From NCBI GenBank assembly GCA_900215285.1, contig OCMG01000004.1, positions 1,235,501-1,299,500 on the forward strand: a DNA stretch of 64,000 nucleotides. The letters are read 5' to 3'. Below the pieces are notes generated by a model. It did no database searches, had not been told where the DNA came from, and was given only the letters and a program-made list of their open reading frames with translations. Within the stretch, counting starts at the first letter, position 1. Each line of letters opens with the position of its first letter. Position numbers and translations under genes: made by a program. Below, in pieces: positions 52,757 through 64,000 of this stretch. The stretch is from Ensifer adhaerens. GTDB lineage: Bacteria; Pseudomonadota; Alphaproteobacteria; Rhizobiales; Rhizobiaceae.

Positions 52757-54589
52757 TCACCCTTCCGGGTCCAGGAACCCGCCCGACTGCCGGTCCCAGA
52801 GCCGGGCATAATGCCCGCCCAACGCGAGCAATTCATGATGCGTGCCCTGTTCGACGATCTGACCGCGCTCCAGCACGACAAGGCGGTCCATCGCCGCAAT
52901 CGTCGAGAGGCGGTGGGCGATGGCGATCACCGTGCGATCCTGCATCAGGTTTTCGAGGCTCGACTGGATGGCGGATTCGACTTCGGAGTCGAGGGCGCTT
53001 GTCGCCTCGTCAAGGATCAGGATGGGCGCGTTCTTGAGGATCACGCGGGCAATGGCAATGCGCTGGCGCTGTCCGCCGGAGAGCTTGACGCCGCGTTCGC
53101 CGACATGGGCGTCGAAGCCAGTGAGCCCGTTCCAGTCGGTCAGGTGCTCGATGAACTCCAGGGCGTGGGCCTGTTCGGCAGCCGCGATCACCTCGGCGCG
53201 GGTCGCATTGCTGCGGCCATAGGCGATGTTCTCGTGGATGGTGCGGTGGAGGAGCGAGGTGTCCTGCGTGACCACCGAGACATGGCGGCGAATGCTTTCC
53301 TGCGTCGCATCGGCGATGTTCTGGCCGTCAATGAGGATGCGGCCCGATTCCAGATCGTAGAAGCGCAAGAGCAGGTTGACGAGCGTCGACTTGCCGGCGC
53401 CCGAGCGCCCGACAAGGCCGATGCGCTCGCCCGGCTTGATGTCGAGTGTCAGGTTCTCGATGATCCCGCCCTTGCGACCGTAGTGGAACGAGATGTCGTC
53501 GAAGCGAATGCCGCCCTGCTTGACCACAAGCGGCTTGGCATTCGGTTTGTCGGTGAGGCCGATCGGCTGGGCGATGGTCTCCATGCTCTCATGCACGGTG
53601 CCGAGCTGTTCGAAGATGGTCGAGATTTCGAGCGCTACACGCGACGAGATGCTGGAAATCTGCAGGGTCATCGGCAGCACGATGGCGACGATGTCGATGC
53701 CGACCTTGCCGTTCGACCAGAGCCAGATTGCCATGGAGGCCGTGCCGGCAATCAGCAGACCCGAGAGCAGTGAAAGGCCGATGCCGAAGAGCGAGAGCCA
53801 GCGATGCTGGGTCGTCATGCGGCCGGTGTGCACATCGACCGATTCGCGCACGAAAGCATCCTCGTCCTCTGCGCGGGCGAAGAGCTTGACCGTCATGATA
53901 TTCGTGTAGCTGTCGACGATGCGGCCGACCATATCCGAGCGCGCATAGGCAATGTTGCGCGAGCCGCGGCGAATCTTCGGCACGATGAAGGCGAGGAAGC
54001 CGATATAGGCCAGCGTCCAGCCGAGAACGGGCAAGACCAGCCAGAGGCTGGCGGTCGCGAGAAAGAGCGATCCTATCAGCCCCAGCGCTGCCAGATACCA
54101 GACGACGGAAATGACCGAGACGGCGGAGTTGCGCAGCGCAAAGCCCACTTCCAGCACGCGCGAGCCGATGCGTCCGGCGAAATCGTTCTGGAAGAAGGAG
54201 AGGTTCTGGCGGATGACGTGCCAGTGGCTCTGCCAGCGGACCAGGTTGGTCATGCCCGGCGCAATCGCCTGGTTCAGCACCAGCGCCTGGAAGGCCATGA
54301 CCAGCGGCTTGACGGCGAGTACGAGGATGACGAGGCTGAAGACCAGATGCTGGCTGTTGCCGATCACCAGTTCCGGCGCGCTCGTCGTCAGCGCCTTGAC
54401 TAGCCGGCCCATGAAGATCGGGATCGCCGCATCCGTGACGGCGACCAGAAAGCTCGCCACCAGCAGCATGATGAAGAGGCCCTTCGCCTGGCGGATAAAG
54501 AACCAATAGAAGCTGAGAATCCCTTCGGGCGGATTGCCGGGGGTCTCCTTAGCGGTCGGGATGATGAGGTTTTCGAAATAGCGGAGCAT
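52757..54589 (-). CDS. ABC-type exporter, fused permease and ATPase
   Basis: This 610-residue half-transporter has six transmembrane helices (about residues 30–330) and a C-terminal ATPase. Walker A GRSGAGKSTLVNLLLRFY, signature LSGGQRQRIAIARVI, Walker B ILILDEATSALD and AHRLSTIAAMDRLVV are intact. It resembles MsbA/multidrug-type (ABCB) exporters. The substrate cannot be deduced and could be lipid, drug or peptide. No partner gene is adjacent, so it probably works as a homodimer. It converges on dppF across repeats. Confidence 0.9.
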   Translation of the reverse strand: MLRYFENLIIPTAKETPGNPPEGILSFYWFFIRQAKGLFIMLLVASFLVAVTDAAIPIFMGRLVKALTTSAPELVIGNSQHLVFSLVILVLAVKPLVMAFQALVLNQAIAPGMTNLVRWQSHWHVIRQNLSFFQNDFAGRIGSRVLEVGFALRNSAVSVISVVWYLAALGLIGSLFLATASLWLVLPVLGWTLAYIGFLAFIVPKIRRGSRNIAYARSDMVGRIVDSYTNIMTVKLFARAEDEDAFVRESVDVHTGRMTTQHRWLSLFGIGLSLLSGLLIAGTASMAIWLWSNGKVGIDIVAIVLPMTLQISSISSRVALEISTIFEQLGTVHESMETIAQPIGLTDKPNAKPLVVKQGGIRFDDISFHYGRKGGIIENLTLDIKPGERIGLVGRSGAGKSTLVNLLLRFYDLESGRILIDGQNIADATQESIRRHVSVVTQDTSLLHRTIHENIAYGRSNATRAEVIAAAEQAHALEFIEHLTDWNGLTGFDAHVGERGVKLSGGQRQRIAIARVILKNAPILILDEATSALDSEVESAIQSSLENLMQDRTVIAIAHRLSTIAAMDRLVVLERGQIVEQGTHHELLALGGHYARLWDRQSGGFLDPEG

Positions 54590-57751: not shown

Positions 57752-58516
57752 ATGGCGAAGTTTTCAGCCAATCTTGGCCTTCTTTGGCGGGAGCTTTCGC
57801 TGCCGATGGCAATCAGGGCCGCCGGACGCGCCGGTTTTGATGCGGTGGAATGTCACTGGCCCTATGATGCGCCGATCGGGGATGTCCGTTCGGCGCTTCT
57901 CGATTCGGGCCTCCCCATGGTCAGTCTCAATACGGGGCGAGGGCGCCCGGATCGGAATGAAACCGGGCTGGCGGCATTGGCTGGTCGCGAGGACGAGGCG
58001 CGGGCGGCTATCGATCAGGCACTTGACTATGCGGTCGCGATCGGCGCGCGAAACATTCATGTCATGGCGGGGAATGCCGAAGGCGAGGCGGCGAAGCGCG
58101 CATTCGTATCCACGCTGACTTATGCCGGAAATCGTGCAGCCGCTCATGGGATCGTCATTCTCATCGAACCACTGAACCGGTTCGACTGGCCGGATTATTT
58201 CCTGCGAACCACAAGCCAGGCGGTTGACGTGATCGATTCGGTCGCTTTGTCCAACCTGAAGCTCATGTTCGACTGTTACCATGTGCAGATCACCGAGGGC
58301 GATCTGACGCGCAGGCTTCGATCGCTGATGCCGGTCATCGGCCATGTCCAGATCGCCGAGGTCCCTGACAGGGGGCCGCCCGATCGCGGTGAGGTCAATT
58401 ATCGCCATATCATCGATGTGCTTGAAGAACTGGGTTACCAGGAGCCGATCGGCGCCGAGTACAGGCCCTGCGGCGTCACGGAGGCCGATCTCGGATGGCT
58501 GGAAAAGCTCAGGTGA
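57752..58516 (+). CDS. Hydroxypyruvate isomerase family sugar isomerase
   Basis: This 254-residue TIM-barrel protein of the Hyi/xylose-isomerase-like family interconverts hydroxypyruvate and tartronate semialdehyde or a related 2-keto sugar. Metal and catalytic residues are in VILIEPLNRFDWPDY (Glu), LMFDCYHVQ (Asp and His), GHVQIAEVPDRG and PIGAEYRP. The N-terminus FSANLGLLWRELSLPMAI is typical. In glyoxylate-using operons hyi is beside gcl and glxR, but here it stands alone, so the substrate is less certain. The ATG at 57752 is chosen by family homology. Confidence 0.85.
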   Translation: MAKFSANLGLLWRELSLPMAIRAAGRAGFDAVECHWPYDAPIGDVRSALLDSGLPMVSLNTGRGRPDRNETGLAALAGREDEARAAIDQALDYAVAIGARNIHVMAGNAEGEAAKRAFVSTLTYAGNRAAAHGIVILIEPLNRFDWPDYFLRTTSQAVDVIDSVALSNLKLMFDCYHVQITEGDLTRRLRSLMPVIGHVQIAEVPDRGPPDRGEVNYRHIIDVLEELGYQEPIGAEYRPCGVTEADLGWLEKLR

Positions 58517-59419
58517 GAGGCGGACGTTCGCCGATCTGACGAGACTTGTGCATGTGTGGTGAAAACCGGATCACCTGAAATCCACGGCCTGTCAGTCTTT
58601 GCACAGTCCGGCGGATGTCCGGTGGAGGCGCCAGCGAGGACTAGCGTTCCTGGCGGATCAAACTTTCAGCGACCAAGAGAGCAGGTGCGGCGCCCTGATG
58701 CGCGGGACCGGAGCATGGTCTCCGTGCCGCGATGCTTTTCGTCTCGGCGTTACTTGATGGATTCCTCTCTCCAAGAATCCGATTCGCCTGTTTTCGGCGA
58801 AATTCTTTCTATAAAGAGTAGAAATTTGTCGCTCCGAAAGGAAGATTCCGCATTATTTCGAGAATTTCATTCGTAATCCTCCTTTCTAATATAAAAAATT
58901 TCCCGGGACTCTGTTTTAGCCTGCCATCGAATCACCCTGTTTTATAGACGCGCGCTTTAGCGCATGGAGCATGAAAATCCCTTCCGGAAACCTTCAGGCA
59001 AGTCTCGGCATCTAGAGAAGAGTCGGGGACGGTTAACATTTTTAGTGGGATCACGAGGGATGGTTACTGGTTGTAAATAGAAAATTAACCGCTATGGTCT
59101 CATTTCTATAAGTGGGTCGCATCGAGTTTTTTGCGCTGGTCTTGGATCACGCATTTCCACCCCTGATCAGGGTGTGATCGAGCGATGACATTTGGGGCGG
59201 GGAATTGGTGTCGACTGACACCACTGCATGATGCGCGTCACCCCCAGGCTTTCAGAGCCATGTTTCTGTGAAATCCGACCGTGCCTGTGCTTGTTCATCC
59301 GTGTTCGTTGAACTGGTCCGGCGCGCTGGATCTTCGACTCTCCCGCTTGCTTCGCTGTCAGGATCAGCGATCCGGTCGGGGGCGTGGGCAAATGGGCAAT
59401 TTGGAAAGCGACGGCGCTG
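58517..59419. other. AT-rich leader region upstream of the giant repeat gene
   Basis: About 900 bases contain no supportable gene. The part 58780–59110 is clearly more AT-rich than the rest of the window. Palindromes cluster at 59145–59222: gatcac…gtgatc, the 12-bp palindrome ccctgatcaggg at 59161–59172, and ggtgtc-gact-gacacc at 59207–59222. Long, AT-rich, palindrome-bearing leaders are common before regulated surface-protein genes. No -35/-10 pair is proposed with confidence. Confidence 0.55.
59161..59222. promoter_or_regulatory. Palindrome cluster before the giant repeat gene
   Basis: Two perfect palindromes, ccctgatcaggg and ggtgtcgactgacacc (4-nt spacer), lie 35 bases apart, about 200 and 250 bases upstream of the start codon. 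They may be binding sites of dimeric regulators. No regulator gene is near. Confidence 0.35.
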
Positions 59420-62400
59420 ATGACCTCGATCATTTCTACTCTGACGACAACACAGATCAAAAACCTCTCCACGAGCACGATCGCCGCGCTTAACACCGGG
59501 GATGTTGCGGCATTCAGCACAGCTCAGGTCGCCGCGCTGTCGTCACGACAGATTTCCGCGTTCCAGACGGCCGGAATTGCCGCCTTCACGACAGCCCAGA
59601 TGGATGCGGTCAGCACCACGGCCGTCACCGGTCTGACCCTGACCCAGCTGGCTGTCGTTTCCACCGGCACGATCGCCGCGCTCACGAGTGCGCAGGTCGG
59701 AAGCCTGACCAGCACCCAGGTTGCCGGATTGACATCCGCGCAGGCGGCGGCGCTGACCGCTGGCCAGATTGGCTCCATGGGCTCGGCCGCCATCGGCGCC
59801 CTGACGACGGATGATATTGCAACCTTCACCACCGCCGAAGTCGCCTCCATCACGCCGAAGGCGATTGCCGGGATGACCACGGCGGGTGTTGCCGCGCTTT
59901 CGACCGATCAGGTCGCTGCGATGACCTCGGGTCAGTTTGCAGGTCTGAAAGCAACTCAGGTTGCCGTGCTTTCCACTGCTCAGCTTGGTGTCATGACCAC
60001 CGCGCAGGCTTCGGCGCTTACCTCCAGCCAGGTCGCGGCCATGACCACGACCCAGGTCGCAGCGCTGTCGAGTTCGCAGTTCGCGGCACTCTCTTCCGCA
60101 GCGATTTCCGGTCTGTCCTCCGCCCAGGTCGGCGTTCTGACCACGGGGCAGGTCGCCGCTCTGACCACCGGCCAGGCCAGTGCGCTCACCTCCACGCAGA
60201 TGGCCGCGATCTCGTCTGCCAACCTCGCGGTTCTCACGACGGGCAATGTCGCGGCCCTCAGCACCAAGGCCGTTGCCGGTCTTTCGTCCACCAACTTCGC
60301 TACGCTGTCCACCGGCCAGGTCGCAGCCCTCACCGCTACGCAGGTCGGCGCTCTGACCACGGGTCAGGTCGGCGCTCTGACGACGGCGCAGCTTGCCGTG
60401 GTCACCACGACGCAGATGGGTGCGCTCTCGTCGACGCAGCTCGCCGCCATGACCACGACGGATGTCGCGGCTCTGACCACGACACAGCTCGCCGCGGTCA
60501 AGTCCACGGCCATTGCGGGCCTCACGACCGCGCAGGTCGGCGCTCTGACCACGGGTCAGGTGGCTGCCCTGACGACGGGCCAGGCCGGTGCGCTGACCTC
60601 GACGCAGATGGCGGCGATCTCGTCGGCCAACCTTGCCGTCCTCACGACGGGCAATGTCGCGGCGCTCAGCTCGAAGGCGATCGCCGGTCTTTCGTCGACC
60701 AACTTTGCGACCCTGTCCACCGGCCAGGTCGCAGCTCTGACCGCCACCCAGGTCGGCGCTCTGACGACGGGCCAGGTTGGCGCGCTGACGACGGCGCAGC
60801 TCGCTGTCGTGACCACGACGCAGATCGGTGCGCTCTCGTCGACGCAGCTCGCCGCCATGACCACGACGGATGTCGCGGCTCTGACCACGACGCAGCTCGC
60901 CGCGGTCAAGTCCACGGCCATTGCAGGCCTCACCTCTGCCCAGGTCGGCGCGCTCACCACGGGGCAGGTCGCTGCCCTGACGACGGGCCAGGCCAGCGCG
61001 CTCACCTCGACGCAGATGGCGGCGATCTCGTCGGCCAACCTTGCCGTCCTCACGACGGGCAATGTCGCGGCGCTCAGCTCGAAGGCGATCGCCGGTCTTT
61101 CGTCGACCAACTTCGCGACCCTGTCCACCGGTCAGGTCGCAGCCCTCACCGCCACGCAGGTCGGCGGGCTGACGACCGGTCAGGTCAGCGCGCTGACGAC
61201 GGCACAGCTGGCCGTGGTCACGACCGGCCAGATGGCGGCGTTGACCTCCACGCAGCTTGCCGCGATGACCACCACGGATGTGGCCGCGCTGACGACCGGT
61301 CAGGTCGCCGCGATCAGCTCGAACGCAATTGCCGGGCTGACCTCCACGCAGGTCGGCGCTCTGACCACAGGTCAGGTTGCTGCTCTGACGACGGGTCAGG
61401 CCGGTGCGCTCACCTCCACGCAAATGGCGGCGATCTCGTCTGCTAACCTCGCCGTTCTCACGACCGGCAATGTCGCGGCGCTGACCACCAAGGCCGTTGC
61501 CGGTCTTTCGTCGACCAACTTCGCCGCGCTGTCGACCGGTCAGGTCGCAGCCCTCACCGCCACGCAGGTCGGCGCTCTGACGACGGGTCAGGTCGGCGCT
61601 CTGACGACGGCGCAGTTGGCTGTGGTCACCACGACGCAGATCGCGGCACTGAACTCGACGCAGCTCGCTGCAATGACCACGACGGATGTCGCGGCTTTGA
61701 CCACGACGCAGCTCGCCGCGGTCAAGTCCACCGCCATTGCAGGCCTCACCTCCGCCCAGGTCGGCGCTCTGACCACGGGTCAGGTGGCTGCCCTGACGAC
61801 AGGCCAGGCCAGCGCGCTCACCTCCACGCAGATGGCGGCGATCTCGTCGGCCAACCTTGCGGTTCTCACGACGGGCAATGTCGCGGCGCTGAGCACCAAG
61901 GCGATTGCCGGTCTTTCGTCCACCAACTTCGCCACGCTGTCCACCGGCCAGGTCGCGGCTCTGACCTCCACGCAGGTCGGCGCTCTGACGACGGGCCAGG
62001 TCTCCTCTCTGACGACGGCACAGCTTGCCGTGGTCACGACCGGCCAGATGGCGGCGTTGACCTCCACCCAGCTTGCCGCGATGACCACCACGGATGTGGC
62101 CGCGCTCACCACGGGCCAGCTGGCCGCAATCAGCACGACGGCGATCGGCGGCATGACCACCGCGCAGATCGGTGCTCTGACGACGACGCAGGTGGCCGCC
62201 CTGTCGACGGTTTCGGTCGGAGCCCTCAGCTCGGCCCAGATCGGCGCGATGAACTCCGCCGATCTCGCCGCCATGACCACGGGTGACGTTGCCGCGATCA
62301 GCACGAAGGCGATTACCGGCATCTCCACGACGAACTTCGCGACGCTGTCGACGGCTCAGGTGGCTGCGTTGACCACGGCGCAGATGGGGGCCCTGACGAC

Positions 62401-64000
62401 GGGTCAGGTTGCCGCGCTGACGACGGCGCAGCTGGCTGTGGTCACCACGGCACAGATGGGTGCGCTCTCGTCGACCCAGCTCGCCGCCATGACCACGACG
62501 GATGTCGCGGCTCTGACCACGACACAGCTCGCCGCGGTCAAGTCCACCGCCATTGCAGGCCTCACCTCCGCCCAGGTCGGCGCGCTCACCACGGGTCAGG
62601 TGGCTGCCCTGACCACCAGTCAGGCCAGCGCACTCACCTCTACGCAGATGGCCGCGATCTCCTCCGCAAACCTCGCCGTCCTCACCACCGGCAACGTCGC
62701 GGCATTGAGCACGAAGGCTGTTGCCGCTGTCTCTACCGCCAATTTTGCCACGCTCTCCACCGGCCAGGTCGCAGCCCTTACAGCGGCCCAGGTCGGTGCA
62801 CTCACGACCGGCCAGGTCGGGGCCCTCACGACGGCGCAGCTCGCTGTCGTGACCACAACGCAGATCGGCGCACTCTCTTCGACGCAGCTGGCCGCGATGA
62901 CCACCACGGATGTGGCAGCTCTGTCGACCACGCAGTTTGCAGCGGTCAAGTCGACCGCCATTGCGGGCCTCACCTCTGCCCAGGTCGGTGCTCTGACCAC
63001 GGGCCAGGTCGCCGCGTTGACGACGGGTCAGGCCAGCGCTCTGACGTCGCCGCAATTGGCGGCCATCTCGTCCGCCAACCTCGCGGTCATGACGACGGGT
63101 AATGTGGCAGCCCTCAGCACCAAGGCAATTGCCGGTCTTTCGTCGACCAACTTCGCGACCCTGTCCACCAGTCTGATCGCAGCGCTCACCTCGTCGCAGG
63201 TCGGCGCCCTGACGACAGCTCAGGTCGGCGCGCTGACGACGGCGCAGCTTGCCGTGGTCACGACCGGCCAGATGGCGGCCCTGACTTCTTCGCAACTTGC
63301 CGCCATGAACACCGCAAATGTCGCGGCGCTCACGACAGGACAGGCCGCCGCGATCAGCTCCAACGCCATTGCCGGCCTCACCTCTGCCCAGGTCGGCGCT
63401 CTGACCACGGGTCAGGTGGCTGCCCTGACGACGGGCCAGGCCGGTGCGCTGACCTCGACGCAGATGGCGGCGATCTCGTCGGCCAACCTTGCCGTCCTCA
63501 CGACGGGCAATGTCGCGGCGCTCAGCTCGAAGGCGATCGCCGGTCTTTCGTCGACCAACTTTGCGACCCTGTCCACCGGCCAGGTCGCAGCTCTGACCGC
63601 CACCCAGGTCGGCGCTCTGACGACGGGCCAGGTTGGCGCGCTGACGACGGCGCAGCTCGCTGTCGTGACCACGACGCAGATCGGTGCGCTCTCGTCGACG
63701 CAGCTCGCCGCCATGACCACGACGGATGTCGCGGCTCTGACCACGACGCAGCTCGCCGCGGTCAAGTCCACGGCCATTGCAGGCCTCACCTCTGCCCAGG
63801 TCGGCGCGCTCACCACGGGGCAGGTCGCTGCCCTGACGACGGGCCAGGCCAGCGCGCTCACCTCGACGCAGATGGCGGCGATCTCGTCGGCCAACCTTGC
63901 CGTCCTCACGACGGGCAATGTCGCGGCGCTCAGCTCGAAGGCGATCGCCGGTCTTTCGTCGACCAACTTCGCGACCCTGTCCACCGGTCAGGTCGCAGCC
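59420..64000 (+). CDS. Giant octapeptide-repeat protein, 5' part only
   Basis: The frame from ATG 59420 stays open to the last base (1527 codons), so the gene continues beyond the window. After a 15-residue opening (MTSIISTLTTTQIKN) the protein is wholly octads of consensus [LMIV]-[TS]-[TS]-x-Q-[VLMI]-[AG]-[AV]: 189 are visible. They form a strict 17-octad, 136-residue super-repeat. Each unit has one octad with STNF (Phe), one TTTDV-type (Asp), one with KSTAIAG and one with SSKAIAG. No Cys or Trp was seen, and charged residues are rare. No signal peptide is apparent, so export by a C-terminal (type I) signal is possible but not visible. Family unassigned; adhesin or surface layer are guesses. 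The start could also be GTG 59384. Confidence 0.88.
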   Translation, partial: MTSIISTLTTTQIKNLSTSTIAALNTGDVAAFSTAQVAALSSRQISAFQTAGIAAFTTAQMDAVSTTAVTGLTLTQLAVVSTGTIAALTSAQVGSLTSTQVAGLTSAQAAALTAGQIGSMGSAAIGALTTDDIATFTTAEVASITPKAIAGMTTAGVAALSTDQVAAMTSGQFAGLKATQVAVLSTAQLGVMTTAQASALTSSQVAAMTTTQVAALSSSQFAALSSAAISGLSSAQVGVLTTGQVAALTTGQASALTSTQMAAISSANLAVLTTGNVAALSTKAVAGLSSTNFATLSTGQVAALTATQVGALTTGQVGALTTAQLAVVTTTQMGALSSTQLAAMTTTDVAALTTTQLAAVKSTAIAGLTTAQVGALTTGQVAALTTGQAGALTSTQMAAISSANLAVLTTGNVAALSSKAIAGLSSTNFATLSTGQVAALTATQVGALTTGQVGALTTAQLAVVTTTQIGALSSTQLAAMTTTDVAALTTTQLAAVKSTAIAGLTSAQVGALTTGQVAALTTGQASALTSTQMAAISSANLAVLTTGNVAALSSKAIAGLSSTNFATLSTGQVAALTATQVGGLTTGQVSALTTAQLAVVTTGQMAALTSTQLAAMTTTDVAALTTGQVAAISSNAIAGLTSTQVGALTTGQVAALTTGQAGALTSTQMAAISSANLAVLTTGNVAALTTKAVAGLSSTNFAALSTGQVAALTATQVGALTTGQVGALTTAQLAVVTTTQIAALNSTQLAAMTTTDVAALTTTQLAAVKSTAIAGLTSAQVGALTTGQVAALTTGQASALTSTQMAAISSANLAVLTTGNVAALSTKAIAGLSSTNFATLSTGQVAALTSTQVGALTTGQVSSLTTAQLAVVTTGQMAALTSTQLAAMTTTDVAALTTGQLAAISTTAIGGMTTAQIGALTTTQVAALSTVSVGALSSAQIGAMNSADLAAMTTGDVAAISTKAITGISTTNFATLSTAQVAALTTAQMGALTTGQVAALTTAQLAVVTTAQMGALSSTQLAAMTTTDVAALTTTQLAAVKSTAIAGLTSAQVGALTTGQVAALTTSQASALTSTQMAAISSANLAVLTTGNVAALSTKAVAAVSTANFATLSTGQVAALTAAQVGALTTGQVGALTTAQLAVVTTTQIGALSSTQLAAMTTTDVAALSTTQFAAVKSTAIAGLTSAQVGALTTGQVAALTTGQASALTSPQLAAISSANLAVMTTGNVAALSTKAIAGLSSTNFATLSTSLIAALTSSQVGALTTAQVGALTTAQLAVVTTGQMAALTSSQLAAMNTANVAALTTGQAAAISSNAIAGLTSAQVGALTTGQVAALTTGQAGALTSTQMAAISSANLAVLTTGNVAALSSKAIAGLSSTNFATLSTGQVAALTATQVGALTTGQVGALTTAQLAVVTTTQIGALSSTQLAAMTTTDVAALTTTQLAAVKSTAIAGLTSAQVGALTTGQVAALTTGQASALTSTQMAAISSANLAVLTTGNVAALSSKAIAGLSSTNFATLSTGQVAA
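59465..64000 (+). repeat. Tandem array of 408-bp super-repeats
   Basis: The marker codons for G-L-S-S-T-N-F recur with exact 408-base spacing at 60281, 60689, 61097, 61505, 61913, 62321, 62729, 63137, 63545 and 63953. Equivalent but diverged positions lie at 59465 and 59873. Each 408-bp unit is 17 × 24 bp. The first two units are the most diverged. Units around 60530–61150 and 63390–64000 are identical to each other over 612 bases. Confidence 0.95.

Follow-up and report, generated by a model that had tools for sequence, protein, structure and literature searches.

A giant ALTTAQ octapeptide array of Ensifer adhaerens, its GT41 glycosyltransferase neighbour and a hidden period of about 3.4 octads

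The stretch of Ensifer adhaerens DNA that we analysed (64,000 nucleotides, hereafter the window) ends inside a giant gene that codes for octapeptides of the ALTTAQ family. These octads are ordered in exact units of 17, their order hides a period of about 3.4 octads, and the gene is followed by a glycosyltransferase gene of a GT41 subfamily that, in all the samples used here, occurs only in genomes with ALTTAQ arrays. We lean, with somewhat more than even confidence, towards the reading that the protein is a helical surface coil that would be glycosylated by this GT41 enzyme and exported, with UDP-galactofuranose provided through UDP-galactopyranose mutase (GLF) and with 17 octads serving as a growth unit of five turns. 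The features of the array in the window are as follows.

59403..59408, + strand: GGAAAG, ribosome-binding-like, 11 bp before the ATG at 59420, as read in the sequence
59420..64000, + strand: window part of the ALTTAQ octad array protein; full length 2,367 aa, stop at window-equivalent 66523
59420..60112, + strand: N-terminal octads outside the regular super-repeats; homologues have a MTSII.SLT-like start
60113..64000, + strand: 17-octad (408-bp) super-repeats in register, units 0 to 9, the last of them truncated where the window ends
60113..60928, + strand: 34 octads (two super-repeats) folded by AlphaFold2; 34 short helices predicted, pLDDT 96.8, pTM 0.86
60533..62694, + strand: first copy of a third-level duplication; 2,085 bp identical to the copy 2,856 bp on
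63389..64000, + strand: start of the second copy of this duplication, which continues to window-equivalent 65550

The window covers positions 1235501-1299500 of one contig (C4) of a 5.19-Mb genome in six contigs. An earlier sequence-only reading of this DNA had described a frame of at least 1,527 residues at the window end. The window does hold 1,527 codons, and with the next 34 kb of the contig included the frame that opens at the ATG at 59420 reaches its stop 2,523 bp beyond the window end, after a total of 2,367 codons, or 2,379 if counted from an alternative GTG at 59384 that would add 12 residues. A stop or frameshift just past the window was looked for and is absent, the frame running 2.5 kb further. 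We prefer the ATG because MTSIIxSLT opens the homologues at two other loci (L046 and L048), with variants in others, and because GGAAAG lies upstream. The encoded protein (226 kDa) contains 716 Ser/Thr, 63 charged residues, three Pro and no Cys or Trp, and by eye no signal-peptide-like N-terminus is evident. The profile search that had been proposed for the protein assigns it to Pfam PF20080 (ALTTAQ repeat; 1,438.5 bits against a cut-off of 26.4, over 85 stretches) and to no other Pfam family at E <= 0.001. Its function had been called unknown, which is still true as to proof, although a named family and a conserved partner enzyme can now be given.

That partner is a gene for a 702-residue TPR plus GT41 protein (PF13844, E 1.8e-73), which lies on the same strand 137 bp 3' of the array, measured to its earliest start. 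Profile relatives include O-GlcNAc transferases and SPINDLY, and a TPR N-terminal part and a GT41 C-terminal part are both present, as in FlmG-like enzymes. The gene is 92-94% identical to genes of Rhizobium sp. C4 and of two Rhizobiales isolates, and the host genome has four further GT41s. Counted from its earliest start, the third gene overlaps the end of the GT41 gene; it encodes GLF, with a narrow pass for TIGR00031 (304.3 bits against a cut-off of 303.75) and an E of 2.1e-78 for PF03275.

The association between array and enzyme extends well beyond this genome. An alignment of eight GT41s was used to search named genomes for the subfamily, and the best 80 of 251 loci were kept, a set that is nearly all Rhizobiaceae, mostly one family, and overlaps our sample of relatives; some of its members are closely related, and L088 and L138 are contigs of a single genome. 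At 70 of these best 80 of 251 loci an array lies in the fetched flank (at most 10 kb a side), and the distance from the GT41 gene to the nearest array has a median of 378 bp and never exceeds 2,202 bp. Of the ten array-less flanks, four have a contig end within 2.8 kb, and all ten genomes have ALTTAQ matches elsewhere (E <= 1e-7). Among 121 genomes (the host and 120 relatives), PF20080 occurs in 11 of 11 that have the GT41 subfamily (called at 622 bits or more, the next match scoring 334) and in four of the 110 that lack it (Fisher 1.1e-12, kinship ignored). One of these four (G039) has merely six PF20080 matches, in an unlike protein; G024, G035 and G066 have arrays yet no PF13844 match in the genome. 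A class-wide draw of 289 genomes gives arrays (E <= 1e-9) in three of three genomes with the subfamily (at least 582 bits; next match 339), our own genome not being among the three, and in one of 285 without it (Fisher 1.0e-6, kinship again ignored). Both sets overlap the 80 loci in their genomes. No arrays were found at 19 loci of other GT41 genes, for which 95.5 kb in total was covered with flanks of about 1-2 kb. In a tree of 45 rows (19 labelled array-linked, with L048_1 also array-linked), the array-linked GT41s of five families fall into one clade of 24 (support 97/94), which stands apart from the four other GT41s of the host and includes four rows of the same subfamily whose flanks hold no array (L070, L093, L101 and L171).

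Other neighbours are less constant than the array among the best 80 of 251 loci: GLF is in the flank at 54 and missing from it at 26, and a GalE-like protein is present at ten, one of which was tested and matches TIGR01179 (411 bits, cut-off 262). A 417-residue protein, found at 19 of these 80 loci, is a putative transferase judging from a DDD motif seen by eye and a weak PF12248 match; no relative with a solved structure was found. Six loci (L102, L106, L112, L116, L119 and L133) have arrays on both sides of one GT41 gene, which suggests that one enzyme may serve several arrays.

If the reading that we favour is correct, the array would be a giant coil with one short helix per octad and about 3.4 octads (27 residues) per turn, a minimal ARM- or mesothelin-like solenoid that would present rows of Ser/Thr. 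The TPR part of the GT41 protein would hold the coil, or the unfolded chain, as the TPR part of FlmG holds flagellin, and the GT domain would add a sugar to the Ser/Thr of this dedicated substrate in the cytoplasm. GLF, along with GalE or the second putative transferase in some relatives, would supply UDP-galactofuranose, which would serve directly as the donor or be used by another transferase to extend the glycan. The glycosylated coil would then leave the cell, with a type I system as the likeliest route, to act as an adhesive or protective surface fibre, and lengthening by units of 17 octads, a whole-number five turns, would keep the facing of the coil.

Precedents exist for the central steps. 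Passages of a study of FlmG (PMC7591256) describe a TPR plus GT-B O-glycosyltransferase, the make-up of the array-adjacent GT41, whose TPR part binds flagellin for cytoplasmic O-glycosylation; it differs in its substrate, flagellin, and in its sugar, pseudaminic acid. In passages of another report (PMC3983070), HMW1C glycosylates its adhesin HMW1 in the cytoplasm, before export, and this pairing of a large exoprotein with a GT41-related cytoplasmic glycosyltransferase is matched by the GT41 gene beside the array. However, HMW1C has an AAD domain rather than TPR and N-glycosylates, and HMW1 uses two-partner secretion.

The composition of the arrays offers a mixed view of glycosylation. Near GT41 genes, arrays have a mean of 2.06 Ser/Thr per octad (sd 0.17, one below 1.71; 72 arrays from the best 80 of 251 loci), compared with 1.63, 1.46 and 1.70 in the GT41-less genomes G066, G035 and G024, which are three phylogenetically confounded cases. 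This difference is consistent with glycosylation, whereas a second ALTTAQ array of the host genome (contig C2, 2,577 aa, L041:7872-15605) does not fit: it has 2.12 Ser/Thr per octad, not below average, and no GT41 was found in the 20 kb around it. This array adjoins PutA on one side and a HWE-type kinase on the other.

It is appropriate to ask whether the array is a substrate at all. The array might instead be a cytoplasmic or surface scaffold, or a lectin-like coil, that binds the enzyme or its product while GT41 modifies another protein such as flagellin, a proposal that we judge unlikely although it deserves to be weighed. The persistence of arrays in the three genomes without a PF13844 match is in its favour, as is the equal Ser/Thr richness of the second array without an adjacent GT41, and mesothelin-type coils have been proposed as lectins in passages of PMC2628672. 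Flagellar genes are also occasional neighbours, with fliF at five of the best 80 of 251 loci and flagellins at one plasmid locus. Such neighbours are rare, however, and the array is the constant partner, near the enzyme at 70 of these 80 loci and elsewhere in the other ten genomes; the higher Ser/Thr content beside GT41 also argues for a substrate, subject to the same confounding by phylogeny.

We also rejected a role as a flagellar sheath, given that fliF is at only five of these best 80 of 251 loci and flagellins at one plasmid locus. The cassette is located by fliF at L048, L081, L084, L089, L090 and L097 (Agrobacterium rosae, A. larrymoorei, Rhizobium skierniewicense and relatives), and at L048 it lies between cheB and fliF/visN/visR. 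On plasmid 5 of Pseudorhizobium flavum (L195), two flagellin genes and flgE are followed by an array, a GT41 gene, a gene for a 428-residue hypothetical protein and glf.

Returning to the proposal of a glycosylated coil, its proposed growth unit is seen as a repeat in the DNA. Division of the array into 408-bp pieces that begin at 60113 leaves units 0 to 13 (four of them wholly past the window) in register, and therefore no octad has been gained or lost there, which bears out the exact spacing claimed earlier from the window alone. Tandem Repeats Finder likewise reports a period of 408 bp with 9.5 copies, 80% matches and 0% indels. Self-identity of the protein is 75% at a shift of 136 residues, 78-80% at 272 and 952, and 42% at 8. 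The residues encoded before 60113 also form octads, but no regular super-repeats. A third repeat level is present in that a block recurs seven units (2,856 bp) later with one exact run of 2,085 bp, which indicates a recent exchange of whole units. Unit exchange has clearly happened, and the unit sizes that we observe follow one underlying period.

To reveal this period, arrays were parsed into octads and the power spectrum of residue identity against octad number was calculated, with shuffled octad order as the control. The window array and ten others (a set that includes two orthologues) all peak at 3.36-3.43 octads, higher than any of 20 shuffles each, although this is not always the tallest peak. 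Likewise, 66 of 72 arrays of at least 700 aa from the best 80 of 251 GT41 loci exceed their shuffles (five each) in the band of 3.34-3.47 octads. The period of about 3.39 octads corresponds to 27 residues, or 0.295 per octad, and aliased harmonics of this frequency would account for extra peaks near 8.7, 2.44 and 5.55 octads. Its whole-number approximants are 2/7, 3/10, 5/17 and 8/27, and the best self-shift in the 72 arrays (best 80 of 251 loci) is 17 octads in 38, 27 in eight, 10 in seven, 34 in six, 61 in five and other values in eight. From the period in octad order we infer a coil pitch of 3.4 octads (27 residues) per turn, so that 17 octads would make five turns. We had also considered that A/G at position 5 might share a facing with G at position 8. 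Their phases are within 54 degrees of each other in 11 of 11 same-order arrays and in L167, but the agreement fails in L164 (two arrays), L165 and L166, and the idea was rejected.

Selection acts on the units as well. In thirteen units compared pairwise, most differences are silent in the sense frame, with a median dN/dS of 0.14 over the 73 of 78 pairs with dS > 0.05; the pairs are not independent because units 8-12 copy units 1-5. Thus, the array units evolve under purifying selection. The second array of the genome has counterparts in four genomes of the same genus (L042, L051, L058 and L059), each exactly 2,577 aa long, and the five orthologues align without gaps at 71-84% identity, with dS of 0.85-1.19 and dN/dS of 0.105-0.200 in ten of ten pairs. 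Some 320 octads without net gain or loss at a dS of about 1 are strong evidence that the length and register of the octad array matter. Both the purifying selection and the commonest best self-shift support the view that the 17-octad order exceeds chance.

It could be countered that this order is a mere relic of unequal exchange, in which whatever 17-octad unit came first was multiplied and its size has no bearing on structure. The recent block duplication is certain, and ALTTAQ proteins from distant sources have other periods, often of 2 octads: among 21 with unbroken runs of at least 50 octads (99 of the 120 listed were dropped for shorter runs), only three have a 3.4-octad period above shuffles, and a period universal to ALTTAQ proteins is ruled out. 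Two arrays of Rhodospirillales (G294 and G390) also have their tallest peak at 2.0 rather than 3.4. Nevertheless, these two and three arrays of G322, all from other orders and with units of 24 octads (seven turns) or 31/62 octads (62 making 18 turns), have a peak at 3.41-3.44 in five of five cases (ten shuffles each), and the peak also appears in arrays of weak self-similarity. An array of the same family (L170) peaks at 3.39, and that of L168 marginally at 3.45 (2.1, the highest shuffle reaching 1.9). Given these recurrences, together with the absence of indels from the five orthologues at their divergence, a mere relic seems improbable to us. The sequence-only reading had posed selection and unequal exchange as an either/or; an exclusive choice is not needed, for the 2,085-bp identity makes whole-unit exchange clear while the unit sizes observed follow one underlying period.

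We consider it very improbable that a shorter gene was lengthened to this array by misassembly. The 2,085-bp exact repeat would lend itself to such an error, and the draft contigs of three relatives (L061, L062 and L063) end within the array, but long arrays are also present on complete plasmids: one of 2,303 aa in Rhizobium daejeonense, which adjoins a GT41 gene and is recorded as a hypothetical protein, and one of about 1,980 aa in Niveispirillum. The number of units does depend on the assembly, and an error could alter that count, not the nature of the protein.

The AlphaFold2 model of 34 octads places one short helix in each octad and has no strand, at a mean pLDDT of 96.8, and thus predicts with high confidence a solenoid of short helices, which had been one of two folds suggested earlier; the other, beta-structure, had been thought equally plausible and is not favoured by the model. 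A beta-helix or RTX-like adhesin is thereby rendered most improbable by an all-helical model and the absence of RTX, even though some other proteins combine ALTTAQ repeats with RTX, filamentous-haemagglutinin, VCBS or Ig-like domains. The top Foldseek rows for the model are mesothelin, which passages of PMC10035497 describe as short helices in a right-handed solenoid whose repeats have 27-37 residues; we infer the hand of the array coil. Z values against mesothelin and ARM structures are at a level common for helical repeats, and these solenoids differ from the array, whose units are strictly of eight residues and for which sequence kinship is not shown. Aligned with importin-alpha, which has ten ARM repeats, the 34 octads cover about ten repeats, a weak agreement with 3.4 octads per turn, and matches to importin and engineered ARM structures were not taken as evidence of family. 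A sequence match was found to HeliScrew4 (PDB 9zem; E 1e-16 over 104 residues), which has LTPEQIAA-like octads and, judging by its name, is a designed helix screw. It differs in having only 120 residues and is absent from the structure matches listed for the array model, and a search of the open-access literature for HeliScrew4 returned no paper.

How the coil might leave the cell can be approached through its relatives. The array protein lacks the RTX nonapeptide domain PF00353, which also has no matches in the host genome, and the two-partner secretion domain PF05860 (E <= 0.001 for both). The check proposed earlier for HlyB/HlyD genes beside the array gave a negative result in the host: no type I secretion genes were found adjacent, and its single HlyD (TIGR01843, E <= 1e-40; C4:2762782) is 1.46 Mb away, while the array genomes G004 and G008 have none at this threshold. 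Adjacent type I secretion is also rejected as a general feature of the cassette, since HlyD is beside it at one of the best 80 of 251 loci in a tblastn search whose single query, a Niveispirillum HlyD, may overlook distant homologues. In three Rhodospirillales, namely Niveispirillum cyanobacteriorum (G294), a member of its family (G390) and Pseudoroseomonas cervicalis, the array is separated from the GT41 genes by genes for HlyD and an HlyB-like exporter. In G294, HlyD scores 292 bits (cut-off 209) and HlyB 606, below its cut-off of 726; the HlyBs of G294 and G390 have a weak C39-like domain. On plasmid pL11-A of P. cervicalis (L192), the array, split over several frames, adjoins an ABC exporter, HlyD, UDP-glucuronate decarboxylase, GT41 and a further TPR protein.

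ALTTAQ stretches elsewhere, with the same octad repeat as the window array, co-occur in proteins with RTX (PF00353), PF05860, Ig-like, VCBS and protease domains, PF05860 being filamentous haemagglutinin in the naming of some sources. Many of the 120 listed relatives carry such other domains (at least ten with PF00353 and at least ten with PF05860), whereas the window array is the whole protein and has a GT41 partner and the 3.4-octad period. By analogy with these proteins and with the HlyB/HlyD genes of the Rhodospirillales, an extracellular life is likely and a type I route plausible. The secreted adhesin or surface component proposed from the window alone is thus plausible, its weak points being the lack of RTX and the distance of the host HlyD. 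A C-terminal pattern, xQVxAVIxAYxx, occurs in 38 of 67 complete array ends from the best 80 of 251 loci (one loose pattern) and could be an export signal.

A broader proposal, which we offer tentatively, is that of a glyco-solenoid system in which the GT41 subfamily puts O-glycans that contain galactofuranose on one or more faces of an alpha-coil with 27 residues per turn, giving a sugar-studded alphaproteobacterial surface fibre that would grow mainly by units that keep the facing (7, 10, 17 and 27 octads). The ALTTAQ repeat was already known as a family by name and occurs in many bacteria (120 listed relatives); our search of the open-access literature found no partner, period or mechanism for it, no paper naming the motif and no pairing with a glycosyltransferase, and the seven papers in which the accession PF20080 occurs are unrelated to judge by their titles. 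New here are the pairing of GT41 with a putative all-helical exoprotein substrate, the octad period and the fold model. The conserved GT41 beside the array has in it a directly testable substrate candidate, and the 3.4-octad period offers a reason for strict 17-octad order in so simple a repeat. If the proposal is true, plant-associated bacteria would have an all-helical counterpart of the GT41-glycosylated HMW1 adhesin, and the arrays would be a natural template for designed octad coils.

Several further observations concern the window and related loci. An MsbA/HlyB-like ABC exporter is encoded at 52757-54589 on the - strand, about 5 kb upstream of the array (MsbA 350 and HlyB 304 bits, both below cut-off), and is a possible candidate for its export. 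In a 2-Mb genome (G260), one protein (L169:7567-10986) combines ALTTAQ repeats with VCBS/cadherin-like domains, and a tricorn-like protease is adjacent. An Rfam scan of 58500-64000 gave no match. About 870 bp without a clear gene (58517-59383) lie 5' of the array and include stretches that by eye are AT-rich; this region could hold a promoter. Finally, an antisense frame of 2,341 aa lies opposite the array (window 59543-64000, - strand; L001:1543-8568) and is probably a by-product of GC-rich repeats.
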